61,000 nucleotides of DNA from Desulfobacteraceae bacterium (GTDB lineage: Bacteria > Desulfobacterota > Desulfobacteria > Desulfobacterales > Desulfosarcinaceae). Position 1 is the stretch's first letter. Every line of letters starts with the position of its first letter. Both the position numbers and the translations under genes were made by a program. The DNA lies in the NCBI GenBank assembly GCA_013003715.1, contig JABDIN010000028.1:1-61000 (forward strand). The letters are read 5' to 3'. Positions 26,827-33,034 of this stretch are shown in pieces. The notes below the pieces were generated by a model. That model did no database searches and was not told where the DNA came from. It saw only the letters and a list, made by a program, of their open reading frames with translations.

Positions 26827-27147
26827 ATGAGTGTTTCAAAAAGAATCCTGGTGGAGGTCATGTATAAAGCCGATTATTGCCTCCCGTGTTTTTATATGGA
26901 TGAAACTGTCCGGGAAATCCTTCCCAAATACAAGGACCAGGTGGAGTACCAAAAGGTGAATTTTTTGGGCAATGGCAAAAAGCGGTTCCTGGAATTGTCC
27001 TGCGAGTTATTCGGTAAGGAAAATGTATATAAAAACTGCCGCCTGGCCCCCATTCCGTCGTTGTTTATCGATGGCCGGCTGATTTTCGATGCCATTCCGC
27101 CATTGTTCGAGCTCGAGGAGGCTATCGAAGAAGCCCTGGCCGGATAA
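26827..27147 (+). CDS. Small thioredoxin-fold protein with C-L-P-C motif
   Basis: A 106-residue thioredoxin-like protein. The redox motif is C18-L-P-C21 in ADYCLPCFYMDETV, followed by a helix and the strand VEYQKVNF. The cis-proline loop reads APIPSLFIDGRLIF. No signal peptide, so it should be cytoplasmic. It is a clear paralogue of the next gene, 18 bases downstream, where the first cysteine position is a TGA codon (C-L-P-C aligns with U-I-P-C; EYQKVN with QYRRVI; APIPSLFIDG with APVPAICING). The partner is unknown; a thiol-disulfide relay with the neighbour or with the diheme protein is possible. Confidence 0.8.
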   Translation: MSVSKRILVEVMYKADYCLPCFYMDETVREILPKYKDQVEYQKVNFLGNGKKRFLELSCELFGKENVYKNCRLAPIPSLFIDGRLIFDAIPPLFELEEAIEEALAG

Positions 27148-27165
27148 AACTGGAAAAGGTCTGTT

Positions 27166-27465
27166 ATGTTAACCGAACCCATTGTTCTCGAGCTCTTACA
27201 CGAAGGGCCGCACTGAATCCCCTGCGAATACATGGCCCGTGTGGTCGAAACGGTTCTTCCCGCTTTTAAGGACAAAATCCAATACCGGCGGGTCATCACC
27301 AAGGATCTTGCCGGCGCCCTCCGCTACGAAGAGATATCAAAACACCTTGGCCGGCCGGCACCGGTTCCCGCCATCTGCATCAACGGTGAACTGGTATTCG
27401 ATACCACCCCCGGTGTGGAAGAACTCCAGGGGTACCTGGACGATCTTCTCACCCCTTCCGTTTGA
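27166..27465 (+). CDS. Candidate selenoprotein: thioredoxin-fold protein with U-I-P-C motif (Sec encoded by TGA 27214-27216)
   Basis: The frame begins at the ATG at 27166, with GGAAAAGG seven bases upstream, and reads 16 codons to an in-frame TGA at 27214-27216. It continues without interruption as IPCEYMARVVETVLPAF to a TGA at 27463-27465, 99 residues in all if the internal TGA is read. The TGA falls exactly at the first redox position: the upstream paralogue has CLPCFYMDE where this gene has TGA-IPCEYMAR. A cis-proline loop APVPAICING follows. A hairpin with a GGTCG apical loop lies 26 bases after the TGA, in the bacterial SECIS range. Without recoding, only a 77-residue protein from the ATG at 27232 would exist, lacking the active site. 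Confidence 0.8.
27232..27258 (+). promoter_or_regulatory. Candidate bacterial SECIS hairpin
   Basis: Immediately 3' of the in-frame TGA at 27214, CCGT (27237-27240) pairs with ACGG (27250-27253), capped by a T-A pair and the apical loop GGTCG (27243-27247). Weaker pairs extend the stem outward to 27232-27258. A loop carrying G-G-U-C about 15-37 bases after the UGA is the feature SelB recognises in bacterial mRNAs. It lies within the coding sequence, as expected in bacteria. Confidence 0.6.
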
Positions 27466-27657: not shown

Positions 27658-29145
27658 ATGCGATATTGCCGAATTGCCTTGTTGTCCGTTTTAGTCGTGT
27701 TAACGTCAGTGCCGGTGTCATTGGCCGCGTATCATCACATGGGTGATACGGACTCGGATATTTTTCGGGACGTTTATCCGGCAGTGGCGGGTACTAAGCT
27801 GGATAGCTGTGCGGTCTGCCACACCGGCGGCCGGTATGAAAAATACCCGGGATCAAACAAATGGGTGGATATGGGCAGCTGCCAGTGGTGCCATTATACC
27901 TATGGATATGACGAGAGCGGCGATATTGATGACACGTTGAATGATTATGGCCGTGATTTTCGGGACCAGGGCAGGAATGCCGATGCACTCCAGACCATAG
28001 CGGATCTTGATTCCGACGGTGACGGTCATGCCAATGGCGATGAAATTCAAGCCGTTCGATTTCCGGGTGATGCCACGGACGACCCCACCATGGTTCCCGC
28101 CCCCTTTCGGATATTTGAACGTTCCCAACTTGAACAATGGCCGCTGCACGAACAATTCCTGCTCATGAACACCCACAAATCCGGGGATTTTTATGCCTTA
28201 TATTCGGGTGTCCCCGTGGAAGATCTGCTGGATGCCGCCGGAATTCTGCCCACGGCAACCGGCATTCGCGTGTACGCACCGGACGGCTGGTCCCAATACC
28301 ATCCGCTGGATCAGAGCGAGGAACCTTCATTTTACCCGGTGTACGGCGAGTACCCACCAGCGGTTTATTACTATGATCAGACAGCAGATGTGGCGTTATA
28401 CCCGGACACCGGCTGGTGTAGTTTTGATTCCATAGGTGCCGAAGACCTTTCGAATGGGGATTCCATCGGAGTTGAAGACGGGTTGAGACTGCTATTGGCC
28501 TTCACCCGGGATAGTGCCTATCTGGAATCCGGAGAACTCGATGCGAGCAACCGGCTCAACGGCGAGGGACCATTTCGGGTCGTGCCCCCTCAAAAAAAGC
28601 CGGGGCCGCCGGATCAAAGTGTCAAATCCGATCATCAGGATGTGATTTGGCCCTTTGACGAAAATGCGGATCATAATGCCGGTTTCGCGACCCGAACCAC
28701 GACTATCATCAAAGTGGACCCTCTTCCCGACGGATTCACGGATATAAACACCCTGGAAGCCGGGTGGAACTTTGTGGATGAAGGCAAAATTGTGGTTTAC
28801 GGTGCCATCGATCCCAGCGAAACCATCTATGAAAAATTCGATCTGCTGATGTCAACGCTGATGGATGCGGAATCATCCGCATTCAAGCGGCATTCCGTTA
28901 AATTCCGGTTCATCTTGAAAATCTGGATCGCCCGGCTTTTTGTGGAATGGGATCGGCCGGAAAAGGCCCTGGACATCGTCAACAACCGGTTGATCACCCG
29001 TGTCGACGGATGCGCTTTGCGCGATCTGGTGGATTACAACGACTGGATCATCACCTGTGATAATCAGAAGCCGGTATACTGGCAACTGCACGAACTGAAA
29101 GCCTTGATCAATCTACTGGTCGACATCAACTCCCCGGCGGAATAA
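27658..29145 (+). CDS. GEGP-motif diheme c-type cytochrome, exported
   Basis: A 495-residue periplasmic protein with a cleavable signal peptide (ends near VSLAAYHH). Two heme c sites are visible: CAVCH at 51-55 and CQWCH at 75-79. A calcium-loop-like DLDSDGDGHANGDE follows near 117-130. The large C-terminal half contains RLNGEGPFRVVPPQ at about 300-310, the block that gives the GEGP-motif diheme family its name, and a sulfite-oxidase-like YAPDGWSQYHPLD upstream. Its redox partner is unknown. AGGAGGAAAG precedes the ATG. It lies 190 bases after the thioredoxin/selenoprotein pair. Confidence 0.8.
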   Translation: MRYCRIALLSVLVVLTSVPVSLAAYHHMGDTDSDIFRDVYPAVAGTKLDSCAVCHTGGRYEKYPGSNKWVDMGSCQWCHYTYGYDESGDIDDTLNDYGRDFRDQGRNADALQTIADLDSDGDGHANGDEIQAVRFPGDATDDPTMVPAPFRIFERSQLEQWPLHEQFLLMNTHKSGDFYALYSGVPVEDLLDAAGILPTATGIRVYAPDGWSQYHPLDQSEEPSFYPVYGEYPPAVYYYDQTADVALYPDTGWCSFDSIGAEDLSNGDSIGVEDGLRLLLAFTRDSAYLESGELDASNRLNGEGPFRVVPPQKKPGPPDQSVKSDHQDVIWPFDENADHNAGFATRTTTIIKVDPLPDGFTDINTLEAGWNFVDEGKIVVYGAIDPSETIYEKFDLLMSTLMDAESSAFKRHSVKFRFILKIWIARLFVEWDRPEKALDIVNNRLITRVDGCALRDLVDYNDWIITCDNQKPVYWQLHELKALINLLVDINSPAE

Positions 29146-30063: not shown

Positions 30064-30618
30064 ATGGACAACCTGGAAACCATTGAAAAAGAGTTGAAAA
30101 AGCTGGCCGCCCGCATGGAGGCCGTGGAAGGCAAGGTAACGGAAGACAAGGTTTCAATGATTGTCTTCAGCGGTGATCTCGACAAGGTGCTGGCCTCTTT
30201 TGTCATCGGCACGGGTGCCGTGGCCATGGGAATGGAGGTGGTGATGTTCTTTACCTTCTGGGGTACGCCTATTTTACGGGATAAAGAGAAAAAAATTGGC
30301 GGGAAAGACACCATGGGCAAAATGTTCGGAGCCATGCTTCCCAAGGGCACCGGAGATGTCAAGCTCTCCAAGATGAACATGGGGGGTATGGGTACGGCCA
30401 TGATGAAATCGCTGATGAAAAAGAAAAACGTCGCTTCACTGGAGCAAATGTTGGAGCTGGCCGAAGAACTCGGGGTTAAAATCTATGTTTGTGAAATGTC
30501 CATGGACCTCATGGGTTTCAAACGGGAGGAGATGGTACAATACAATCATATGGAGTTTTGTGGTGTCGCCAAATTTCTCGAAGAGGCTAAAAACAGCAGG
30601 GTTCAGCTCTTTATTTAA
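30064..30618 (+). CDS. DsrE/DsrF/DrsH-like sulfur-relay protein
   Basis: A 184-residue cytoplasmic protein of the DsrE-like superfamily (peroxiredoxin-like DrsH group). The core reads KVSMIVFSGDLDKVLASFVIGTGAVAMGMEVVMFFTFWG, with a late cysteine in VKIYVCEMSMDLMG and another in MEFCGVAKFL; one of these would carry the persulfide. A methionine/lysine-rich insertion lies in the middle. TGGAGGATGT supplies the ribosome binding site. It is first in an operon with TusA, a NarI-like and an HdrD-like protein, which suggests sulfur transfer coupled to membrane redox chemistry. Confidence 0.88.
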   Translation: MDNLETIEKELKKLAARMEAVEGKVTEDKVSMIVFSGDLDKVLASFVIGTGAVAMGMEVVMFFTFWGTPILRDKEKKIGGKDTMGKMFGAMLPKGTGDVKLSKMNMGGMGTAMMKSLMKKKNVASLEQMLELAEELGVKIYVCEMSMDLMGFKREEMVQYNHMEFCGVAKFLEEAKNSRVQLFI

Positions 30619-30648
30619 AAAAGACAAAAAAATAGCGGAGGAATGACC

Positions 30649-30891
30649 ATGAGTGAAGACATTAAAGTCGAAAAGGTACTGGATTTGAAGGGCTTGCCCT
30701 GTCCCATGCCGGTTGTGAAAATCAGCAAGGGCATCAAGGAGGTTGAAATCGGCCAGGTGGTTGAAGCGATTACCACCGACCCTGGAACCCTGACGGATTT
30801 TCCGGCGTGGGCCAGAACCAGCGGCAATGAGATCCTGAAAACGGATCAGACCGGTGATGAAATCAAATTTTATGTCAAACGGAAGGTCTGA
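30649..30891 (+). CDS. tusA: TusA/SirA-family sulfur carrier
   Basis: An 80-residue protein with the TusA signature LDLKGLPCPMPVVKISKGI; C18 in CPMP carries the transferred sulfur as a persulfide. The second half, VVEAITTDPGTLTDFPAWA, gives the conserved DP loop. The ATG at 30649 is preferred over 30643 because GGAGGAATGACC places the ribosome binding site at proper distance. It is 30 bases after the DsrE-like gene. DsrE and TusA proteins are known sulfur-relay partners. Confidence 0.93.
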   Translation: MSEDIKVEKVLDLKGLPCPMPVVKISKGIKEVEIGQVVEAITTDPGTLTDFPAWARTSGNEILKTDQTGDEIKFYVKRKV

Positions 30892-31067
30892 ATTGATGCG
30901 GGTTGCATCGAATACCGGTTTAATGGCGATGGGACCAAATGCCAGGGTACCTGATTTGACTGTCGAATCAATCATCCGGGACTATACGACAGCATGACAG
31001 TGCCAAATTCATAAGGTGGAATAGAAAATCGTGTCACGGTCAGAAACTTCCGGCAAAGGAGGTGTCC

Positions 31068-31778
31068 TTGCAAACACTTATCTACATTATCATGGTCCCT
31101 ATGGTTTATGCGGCGGCGGCGATATTTGTGGTGGGAATTATCATTCGCCTCGTCGTGTTACTGCGCGCGCCCGCCAACCCATCTACATTGCAGATTTATC
31201 CGGAAAAACGCCCGAAGTGGCTCTGGGCGATCCATGATACCTTTCTCTTTCCGACGGTCCGGCGGCACAAACCGGTGCTCTGGGTATTTCTGATACTCTT
31301 TCATATCGCATTCCTGCTCCTGTTCATCGGCCATCTGGAGTTGTTTGCGGATTTTCAACTGACCCAGATTATCGCGCACGATATATTTCTGGGACAGGGA
31401 TTCGTGGGGCTGACACTTTCCATCTGTCTGCTGTTTTTTTTATTCCGCCGTATCAAATCCCCGGTACGGGAAATATCGGTACCGGAAGACTACCTGCTGT
31501 TGTTGCTGCTCTTCCTGACTGTTTTATTCGGCAGCCAGATGGACTGGGCACGGACGTGGTATGAATACGGCGAACTCACCGTCGAGGACTATCGGGCCTA
31601 CCTGTTAAGCCTTGTGGTGCTAAAACCGGATCTGCCGTTTGCCACAACCTTTTCAGGTCACTCGTTCATGCTGGTCCTGCATATCTTCTTTGCAAATCTA
31701 TTTCTCATCTTTTTCCCTTTCAGCCAACTCATGCATTCCATTTTATCTTTGCCGATGAATAAACTCAGAAGAGGTTGA
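31068..31778 (+). CDS. NarI/DsrM-like membrane heme b subunit
   Basis: About 236 residues with five to six membrane helices. It resembles the gamma subunit of respiratory nitrate reductase and the DsrM/HmeC/TmcC subunits that pair with HdrD-like proteins. Histidines in membrane segments (LFHIAFLLLFIGHLELF and FSGHSFMLVLHIFF) are the likely heme b ligands. The start is read as the TTG at 31068, because AAAGGAGG ends five bases before it; GTG at 31062 overlaps that site. The stop lies two bases before the next ATG. It should pass electrons between menaquinone and the Fe-S partner. Confidence 0.83.
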   Translation: MQTLIYIIMVPMVYAAAAIFVVGIIIRLVVLLRAPANPSTLQIYPEKRPKWLWAIHDTFLFPTVRRHKPVLWVFLILFHIAFLLLFIGHLELFADFQLTQIIAHDIFLGQGFVGLTLSICLLFFLFRRIKSPVREISVPEDYLLLLLLFLTVLFGSQMDWARTWYEYGELTVEDYRAYLLSLVVLKPDLPFATTFSGHSFMLVLHIFFANLFLIFFPFSQLMHSILSLPMNKLRRG

Positions 31779-31780
31779 TC

Positions 31781-33034
31781 ATGGATGAAAAAACCAAAAC
31801 CGAACTGCTCACCTTGTTTAAAAACAAGTTGAACCGGGCCATGAGGTATTATCTGGACACCTGCACCCGTTGCGGCGTTTGCACTAAAGCCTGCCATGCC
31901 TATGCATCAACAGGACAGGTCCGGTACACCTCGGCTTACCGCCATGAGCTGGTACGACGACTGTATAAAAAATATTTCAAGTTGCAGGGAAAGGTCTGGC
32001 CGGCCGCCGGCGAGGCCAAAGTGCTGGAGGACATGACCATCAAGGAGCTCTACGATGCGGCCTATTCCTGCACGGGATGCCGCCGGTGCATGGTCTATTG
32101 CCCCTTTGGTATCGACACCCAGATGATCATGTCCATCGCCAAGCTGTTGCTGGTCGGGGCCAGTACCGAGCCCGAGCTACTGACCATGCTGGCGGATATG
32201 TCCATAGAAAAAGGCAAATCCATGGACGTCTTCAAAGAGAGCTTTTTAACCGGCATCAAAAAGCTCGAGGGCCAGGTGGTGGAAAAATGGCGGTCCGAAG
32301 CCGGTGAAACGGTTATCCCCATTGACGTGGATGGCGCGGACCTTCTTTATGTGGCACTTGCCGGCGCCCACTCCATTATCCCGGCCGCGGCGGTCTTCAA
32401 TGCCGCCGGGGAACATTGGACCCTCAGTTTTTTCGAAGCCGTCAATTTCGGTGCATTTGTGGGAGATCCCACCCGCACCACGCTGATTCTCGACCGGATC
32501 ATCAGTGAGGCCAAACGCCTCAAGGTGAAAGAGGTCTGTATTTGTGAATGCGGAACGGCCTTTCGCGTCATGAAACACCTCACCGGCCCGCAGCCCTTCA
32601 AGGTGTCATCCATCACCGAGGTCCAGGCCCGATACATCCGGGAGGGGCGAATCCGTCTGGACAAATCCATCGTAAGCGACACCGTCACATACCATGATCC
32701 CTGCCAGATTGCGCGGAATGGGGGAATTATCGATGAAGCCAGGTATATCCTGCATCACCTCACGGATAATTATACGGAGATGACAAAGGAACCTAAATAC
32801 AATTGGTGCTGCGGTGGTGGCGGCGGTCTTGTGGCCATGGGTGAGGAAACCCTTGACTTCAGAATGACATCATCAAGCATCAAAGCGGATCAGGTCAGAA
32901 AAACCGGCGCTAAAATCTTGAGCACTGCGTGTGAAAACTGCCATACACAACTGGGCGATCTCAACGATCACTACAAACTGGGAGTGGATGTTAAATTCCT
33001 CTCGTCCATGGTGGCTGATGCCCTGGTTCGTTAA
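31781..33034 (+). CDS. HdrD/DsrK-like Fe-S oxidoreductase
   Basis: About 417 residues. Two [4Fe-4S] ferredoxin motifs (CTRCGVCTKAC and CTGCRRCMVYC) are followed by two CCG-type domains (CECGTAF and HDPCQI, then NWCCGGGGGLV and STACENCHTQL) like those binding the catalytic cubane in HdrB/HdrD. This is the layout of DsrK, HmeD and TmcB, which reduce disulfides or donate electrons from them on the cytoplasmic face. With the NarI-like subunit it should form a quinone-linked complex; with DsrE and TusA upstream, protein-bound sulfur or a trisulfide is a plausible substrate. Confidence 0.87.
   Translation: MDEKTKTELLTLFKNKLNRAMRYYLDTCTRCGVCTKACHAYASTGQVRYTSAYRHELVRRLYKKYFKLQGKVWPAAGEAKVLEDMTIKELYDAAYSCTGCRRCMVYCPFGIDTQMIMSIAKLLLVGASTEPELLTMLADMSIEKGKSMDVFKESFLTGIKKLEGQVVEKWRSEAGETVIPIDVDGADLLYVALAGAHSIIPAAAVFNAAGEHWTLSFFEAVNFGAFVGDPTRTTLILDRIISEAKRLKVKEVCICECGTAFRVMKHLTGPQPFKVSSITEVQARYIREGRIRLDKSIVSDTVTYHDPCQIARNGGIIDEARYILHHLTDNYTEMTKEPKYNWCCGGGGGLVAMGEETLDFRMTSSSIKADQVRKTGAKILSTACENCHTQLGDLNDHYKLGVDVKFLSSMVADALVR

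Follow-up and report, generated by a model that had tools for sequence, protein, structure and literature searches.

A catalogued UxxC selenoprotein with a thioredoxin fold in a Desulfobacteraceae genome and its probable association with a corrinoid methyl-transfer module

Results

The HUIPC gene and its tandem paralogue

The stretch of DNA analysed here (the window) is a whole contig of 61,000 bases, contig C5 of a Desulfobacteraceae genome, and carries on its forward strand, at positions 27166 to 27465, a gene for a small seleno-thioredoxin-like protein, hereafter HUIPC. Read from the ATG at 27166 through a single in-frame TGA (27214 to 27216, forward strand) to a terminator at 27463 that is also TGA, the gene yields a product of 99 residues in which U marks position 17: MLTEPIVLELLHEGPHUIPCEYMARVVETVLPAFKDKIQYRRVITKDLAGALRYEEISKHLGRPAPVPAICINGELVFDTTPGVEELQGYLDDLLTPSV. 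The candidate redox residues are arranged as Sec17-Ile-Pro-Cys20. Two codons, both on the forward strand, are invariant among 17 aligned HUIPC proteins: that of the resolving cysteine, Cys20 (27223 to 27225), which is preceded by H16 in at least 90% of them, and that of Pro68 (27367 to 27369), which falls at a place that we take to be that of the thioredoxin cis-proline, with the role presumed for that residue. A putative ribosome-binding-like stretch, GGAAAAGG, lies at 27152 to 27159 on the same strand, 6 bases 5' of the ATG, as judged from sequence only.

Directly upstream on the same strand, at 26827 to 27147, lies a thioredoxin-like paralogue with a CLPC motif, which ends 18 bases before the HUIPC ATG. 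An alignment of the two products spans 90 columns (32% identity, E 9e-18) and places U17 on the first and C20 on the second CLPC cysteine; the paralogue scores 68.2 bits against the model of the HUIPC family described below, under its cut-off of 105. Four promoter-like sites were found 5' of the pair, where 1.7 would be expected. In the plain list of open reading frames, the HUIPC frame is represented only by 27232 to 27465, a protein of 77 residues that lacks the active site. An earlier note on this DNA had described the ribosome-binding-like stretch, the frame passing through the TGA, the nearby paralogue with its first cysteine at the TGA and its second kept, and the shortened product that a gene caller would report; its observation is right in every testable detail.

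The nearest window genes to the pair are one for an M3 peptidase and one whose product has two CxxCH motifs. The latter gene, at 27658 to 29145 on the HUIPC strand and directly 3' of HUIPC, encodes 495 residues and has a weak Pfam match only. Farther along, at 30064 to 33034, genes for DsrE-like, TusA, nitrate-reductase-gamma-like membrane and CCG-domain iron-sulfur proteins follow one another, which is likely a cluster for sulfur transfer and electron transfer.

Family and fold

The HUIPC product scores 143.9 bits against the NCBIfam model NF047660, 'HUIPC motif thioredoxin-like (seleno)protein' (cut-off 105), a family that the available part of a 2026 review (PMC13188914) lists with a UxxC motif, citing Haft and Tolstoy 2025. 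The title of the earlier note had called the protein undescribed-looking; since it lies over the cut-off of a catalogued family that the review also lists, that description was wrong. A literature search found no function for the family, and the NF047660 entry description states none.

The usual thioredoxin motif is WCGPC, in place of which the HUIPC protein has His-Sec-Ile-Pro-Cys. An AlphaFold2 model built from an input of 8 sequences (mean pLDDT 93.1) places a strand at residues 6-12 and the Sec/Cys site where a helix (18-37) begins, followed by a strand, a helix, two strands and a helix. In a Foldseek search of the PDB, most of the 50 matches listed are titled thioredoxin, with TM-scores of 0.56-0.71 by query length. 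As modelled, then, HUIPC has a thioredoxin fold, its strands and helices following one another much as in thioredoxins.

Decoding of the in-frame TGA

The earlier note had proposed that the TGA encodes selenocysteine, and had looked for support to selA, selB, selC and selD in the genome and to homologues with TGA or Cys at position 17. The genome holds the complete machinery, each part over its cut-off: selA (601 bits, cut-off 267.9), selB (379.7 bits, cut-off 242.25), tRNA-Sec (71 bits, gathering 47) and selD. The selD match (contig C8:18649-19569, locus L047, minus strand) itself runs through one in-frame TGA, so that SelD of this genome, on its sequence, is probably also a selenoprotein.

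In a first sample of 146 genomes, the present one included, 21 had some HUIPC match and 16 matches, again counting our own, read through a TGA; the 15 others are 51-60% identical to it, and the alignment of one of them (genome G066) also crosses that gene's final TAG. In the codon columns, TGA stands in 16/16 rows, with HEG upstream and PC downstream in every row. Conservation of this extent goes far beyond what chance would give. A wider sample of the class comprised 389 genomes, in which any protein over the NF047660 cut-off was counted as a member: 32 genomes, from 16 families, have one, and 26 of these read through one TGA while 6 have no stop. Cys occupies the Sec place in the five no-stop members inspected (G112, G148, G228, G278 and G390, with G165 left out), and two further Cys-type genes came from named records (loci L121 and L122). 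Homologues thus continue through the TGA rather than all being truncated there. A separate contig scan returned 5 loci, all Cys forms; because its pattern fixed Cys at the Sec place, these tell nothing about the frequency of the Sec form. On a tree of 63 rows, drawn from a short alignment and with many forks open, the 20 Sec rows fall together in a single group (support 92/88), the 7 Cys rows require two changes, and CLPC forms a clade of its own (97/92).

A SECIS-type hairpin, GGCC-CGTGT-GGTC, lies inside the coding region at 27234 to 27246 on the forward strand, 20-32 bases 3' of the TGA; in Sec genes the consensus, over alignment columns 21 to 33 past the TGA, is G(G/A)CC-(C/A)G(T/G)GT-GG(T/C)(C/T). 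Its signal came from the aligned gene set: folded alone, the window hairpin does not exceed shuffled sequence in stability (z -0.11). In 20/20 Sec genes the four pairs are complete, but the 7/7 Cys genes looked at have only 2-3 of them; sliding the partner by 1-3 columns lowers the paired cells from 100% to at most 59% in 16 Sec genes; and mean wobble entropy is 0.53 bits in codons +5 to +11 versus 1.23 elsewhere (5 and 10 codons of conserved amino acids, respectively). The four pairs show no two-sided covariation among 16 Sec genes, and their one-sided changes are no more than shuffles give, so covariation, strictly speaking, is absent.

Two other readings of the TGA can be weighed against these data. 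It might be a true stop, in a pseudogene, through a sequencing error, or with translation restarting at the internal ATG at 27232, where the plain open reading frame indeed begins. Against this stand the read-through in 26 of the 32 members across their 16 families, the conservation of the frame on both sides of the TGA, and the natural variants with Cys at its place; moreover, the internal Met belongs to a YM motif that also lies 3' of the cysteines in CLPC and in the related protein QCAAC, and is therefore not a start signal. We regard a true stop as very improbable and as refuted by this comparison, and the pseudogene version of it was dropped. Even more improbable is that the TGA is read as another residue, such as Trp, through a general code change or a suppressor: the frame would stay open under any sense reading, but the gene's own terminator is TGA, the natural variants looked at have Cys, and the genome has its full Sec machinery, and on these grounds a code change was dropped. 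Together, the Sec machinery, the conserved TGA, the natural Cys versions and the hairpin bear out the earlier proposal: SelB and tRNA-Sec, aided by the downstream hairpin, almost certainly decode UGA codon 17 of HUIPC.

Neighbourhoods in related genomes

Regions around HUIPC were fetched from relatives in two rounds (20, then 10 more, together with one of our own genome), giving 26 HUIPC loci: 24 from the 31 other over-cut-off genomes, and L121 and L122, which had been chosen by the Cys pattern. The over-cut-off genomes G165, G246, G293, G316, G333, G336 and G361 have no fetched locus, and loci L069-L072, which hold no HUIPC protein over the cut-off, were left out of the count; two of these four carry an MtaA-type gene with QCAAC, a CLPC relative and CobW, and L071 carries nothing of the set. 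Neighbouring genes were assigned by tblastn with named references, which superseded a clustering that had picked antisense open reading frames in places (clusters 10 and 146). Five core genes were counted: an MtaA-type methyltransferase, the thioredoxin-like QCAAC-Trx, CobW, a thioredoxin-reductase-like (TrxR-like) protein and the thioredoxin-like QUxAC. Because the fetched stretches differ in length, all neighbour counts are lower bounds.

In 24/26 loci CLPC shares the strand of HUIPC and is no more than 2.4 kb away from it, and in three genomes (G112, locus L034; G228, L126; G278, L129) CLPC and Cys-type HUIPC domains are fused in one open frame. At least one core gene is near HUIPC in 21/26 loci: the MtaA-type gene in at least 11 of the 26, and QCAAC-Trx, CobW, TrxR-like, QUxAC and a Trx_3 protein in at least 12 each, with all copies found lying on the HUIPC strand. 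In genomes G334 and G308 the order is MtaA-Sec (the seleno-methyltransferase described below), QCAAC, CLPC, HUIPC, QUxAC, Trx_3 and CobW within about 4 kb, and the G334 run extends past CobW to a B12-binding protein and a MeaB-like GTPase. No core gene was found within the fetched stretch in the remaining 5/26 loci, one of which reaches only 0.9 kb downstream. Among the companions, the TrxR-like protein scores 256.3 bits, below the thioredoxin-reductase cut-off of 343.45; an MTH895/ArsE-type thioredoxin scores 80.4 bits (cut-off 62); and a DUF2284 'predicted metal-binding' protein resembles arsenite-methyltransferase and metal-binding selenoprotein domains, below their cut-offs. One record labelled Myxococcota (L122, JAJYTC010000005.1) holds MtaA-Sec, QCAAC, CLPC, Cys-type HUIPC, Sec-type QUxAC, Trx_3 and CobW in one locus; given its label, the module may cross phyla.

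Our own genome is arranged differently: HUIPC and CLPC are on contig C5, and the module is on contig C55, where MtaA-Sec, QCAAC-Trx, CobW, the TrxR-like gene and QUxAC occur with an MtrH-like protein, a second MtaA-type protein, a corrinoid protein, a RACo-type activator, DUF6951 and DUF2284. Trx_3 was not found in a stretch of 19 kb around this set, and none of 17 other reference proteins was found in the 61,000 bases of the window. The separate contigs are the chief argument against HUIPC and the module being partners in a strict operon in this organism.

Co-inheritance with the methyltransferase

In the 389-genome sample, the MtaA-type gene is present in 31/32 HUIPC genomes and in 18/357 others (p 5e-32, ignoring shared descent), the one exception being G158, where HUIPC is present but no methyltransferase was found at E 1e-60. 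HUIPC is not indispensable to that enzyme, since no HUIPC protein over the cut-off was found in 18 genomes that carry the methyltransferase, of which three are at most 71% complete. QUxAC occurs in 30/32 HUIPC genomes (p 4e-35, again ignoring shared descent), and HUIPC, the MtaA-type gene and QUxAC occur together in 29 genomes.

HUIPC might instead be a general housekeeping or stress thioredoxin whose neighbourhood reflects a shared anaerobic gene island, as would suit its thioredoxin fold, the position of our own copy away from the module and the 5 of 26 loci without a core gene; a CobO-like gene also lies near HUIPC in 11/26 loci, so that B12 genes cluster there generally. That reading predicts HUIPC in most relatives, whereas a protein over the cut-off is found in only 32 of 389 and is nearly confined to genomes with MtaA-Sec, and the core genes found share the HUIPC strand while the CobO-like gene is always on the opposite one. 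We consider a housekeeping role unlikely. From the co-inheritance and the same-strand linkage, the HUIPC-CLPC unit very likely belongs functionally to the corrinoid methyl-transfer module.

A methyltransferase with a predicted selenocysteine

The MtaA-type gene of our own genome (contig C55:18357-19388, locus L076, minus strand) encodes an MtaA/CmuA-family corrinoid methyltransferase, called MtaA-Sec here, that scores 164.7 bits against PF01208 (cut-off 23.9) and 133 bits against TIGR01463, below the cut-off of 235.4. It too has an in-frame TGA, at codon 312 of 344, as do its orthologues (loci L083-L105 and L133:6127-7158), which likewise bear a 7-bp SECIS-type hairpin. In an alignment with the MtaA structure 4ay7, this TGA coincides with the Cys of APGC, and the position of the His in the HICG of MtaA is occupied by Phe; in the S-methyltransferases of this superfamily, according to the available text of PMC10418091, His-Cys-Cys binds zinc. 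Orthologues at 65-100% identity occur in 49 genomes of the 389, 47 with TGA and 2 (G284 and G346) with no stop and Cys at its place; a further 14 stop-free rows, at 33-39% identity, were not included in this count. A pattern for the MtaA C-terminus matched 25/27 loci, the unmatched ones being L106, in which a separate analysis shows a TGA, and L107, a fragment that stops short of this position.

The hairpin 3' of this TGA, ATGTTCC-GG(T/C)-GGAACAT, pairs in 97.1% of 175 cells from 25 sequences, with one two-sided change, a number reached by 19/500 shuffles; 6 or 7 of its 7 pairs form in the five Sec genes compared, as against 1 and 3 in the two Cys genes. The same kind of evidence as for HUIPC therefore argues that MtaA-Sec is a selenoprotein, with selenocysteine at a predicted metal-ligand position. 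As such it is possibly new: no NCBIfam selenoprotein model matches MtaA-Sec or QUxAC over its cut-off; neither 'uroporphyrinogen' nor 'MtaA' occurs in the main text, as available, of reviews from 2026 (PMC13188914) and 2022 (PMC9312934); the accessible text on deep-Sep (PMC12013277) contains neither 'uroporphyrinogen' nor 'methyltransferase'; and none of four mentions of MtaA in the accessible part of PMC2933860 calls it a selenoprotein. A plain open-reading-frame caller shortens MtaA-Sec by 33 residues, so that the last of the predicted metal ligands is lost, and it reports the seleno-thioredoxins truncated or not at all.

The third gene of this kind, QUxAC, has an in-frame TGA in our own genome (contig C55:33328-33621, minus strand; L134:4329-4622) and at L133:8356-8643. 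Against NF047660, two QUxAC proteins reach 39 and 44 bits, below the cut-off, with no other model at E 1e-5, and the one tested has no Pfam match. In the class sample TGA is present in 39/39 rows at 62% identity or more, from 38 genomes (one row passes through two TGA); one further row, at 70% identity, covers only residues 23-96.

Discussion

Taken together, the data are probably best explained by HUIPC as a selenocysteine-containing thioredoxin that, in a unit with CLPC, serves a seleno-methyltransferase module. The Sec17-x-x-Cys20 pair would be the redox centre of this small thioredoxin-fold selenoprotein, and CLPC and HUIPC would make a two-domain redox unit, as the single chain in three genomes suggests. 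The module would comprise MtaA-Sec, the HUIPC relatives QCAAC and QUxAC (the latter a predicted selenoprotein), Trx_3, the CobW GTPase and the thioredoxin-reductase-like flavoprotein. We lean, with some reserve, towards a wider reading that counts HUIPC among the three selenoproteins of a module that has gone unrecognised, built around an MtaA/CmuA-family enzyme with Sec in place of a zinc-ligand Cys and four thioredoxin-like proteins (QCAAC, CLPC, HUIPC and QUxAC), two of them seleno, together with CobW and a reductase. Should this be true, the Sec of an MtaA/CmuA-family enzyme would bind the metal or itself accept the methyl group; and if Sec truly sits at the MtaA-type metal-ligand position, selenium would be used in methyl-transfer chemistry, beyond redox.

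Electrons may pass from the reductase-like protein to Trx_3 or CLPC and on to HUIPC, whose selenolate would then reduce the Cys/Sec site of the methyltransferase or an oxidised soft-atom substrate. The likeliest job of HUIPC, at about even odds, would be to keep that site, or a thiol, selenol or other soft-atom substrate of the methyltransferase, reduced. By analogy, the likeliest substrates of the methyltransferase are methyl-sulfur, methyl-selenium or metalloid compounds, with no choice among them, because in vitro selenide is methylated by ClMlp2, which belongs to the type 1 mlp clusters (PMC10418091, in the part available).

The thioredoxin-like set could also be a carrier chain that delivers a metal, a metalloid or selenium to the methyltransferase, or removes such a soft atom from it; this reading shares the Sec and the module parts with the one above, and the two overlap. 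Its companions in the module speak for it, namely the CobW GTPase, the DUF2284 protein with its below-cut-off likenesses and the MTH895/ArsE-type thioredoxin, as does the link drawn in the accessible text of PMC10418091 between type 1 mlp clusters with MtaA homologues and methyl-selenide metabolism. The TrxR-like gene found in the set in 12/26 loci favours a redox role, even with its below-cut-off score, and no metal was assigned by any analysis; a carrier chain is possible but doubtful. Under the favoured reading, with HUIPC as a redox partner of the methyltransferase, a family that has a name but for which no function was found gains a testable place through its linkage to the methyl-transfer module. 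This functional placing is new to us and testable; the family itself was already known.

Comparison with known systems

HUIPC agrees with NF047660 in its motif, in a profile of 91 positions that takes in Sec or Cys forms, and no difference was found. With thioredoxins (PF00085, PF13192, TIGR00411) it has in common the fold, a UxxC at the CxxC site and Pro68 at the cis-Pro place, but it scores below the cut-offs of the thioredoxin models, with 14.8 bits for PF13192 (24.8) and 21.9 for TIGR00411 (92.75), and has no match to PF00085 at E 1, thus staying under the Pfam gathering cut-off for classical thioredoxins. SaoT/TsoX-type seleno-thioredoxins (models NF040730 and NF045809), which PMC13188914, in its available part, lists with other selenoproteins of named sets as small thioredoxin-like or UxxC selenoproteins, are like HUIPC in these same respects; the match of HUIPC to TsoX is weak (13.8 bits, cut-off 52), and SaoT matches the CLPC paralogue only, also weakly (12.3 bits, cut-off 65).

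The nearest relatives of the module as a whole are the type 1 mlp clusters of Kountz and Balskus (PMC10418091, in the text available), which belong to anaerobes, most of them with selenocysteine machinery, and share with it MtaA-family methyltransferases, a corrinoid protein and a Ram/RACE-type activator. The Mlps of those clusters, several Mlps1 excepted, have His-Cys-Cys zinc ligands, and that text mentions no Mlp with Sec. MtaA-Sec, the one of the two MtaA-type proteins of our genome that was compared, lacks by contrast the His-Cys-Cys ligand set of type 1 mlp clusters: Phe takes the place of the aligned His and a predicted Sec that of the last Cys, and the module here differs further in its MtrH-like methyltransferase and in the thioredoxins and CobW that stand alongside.
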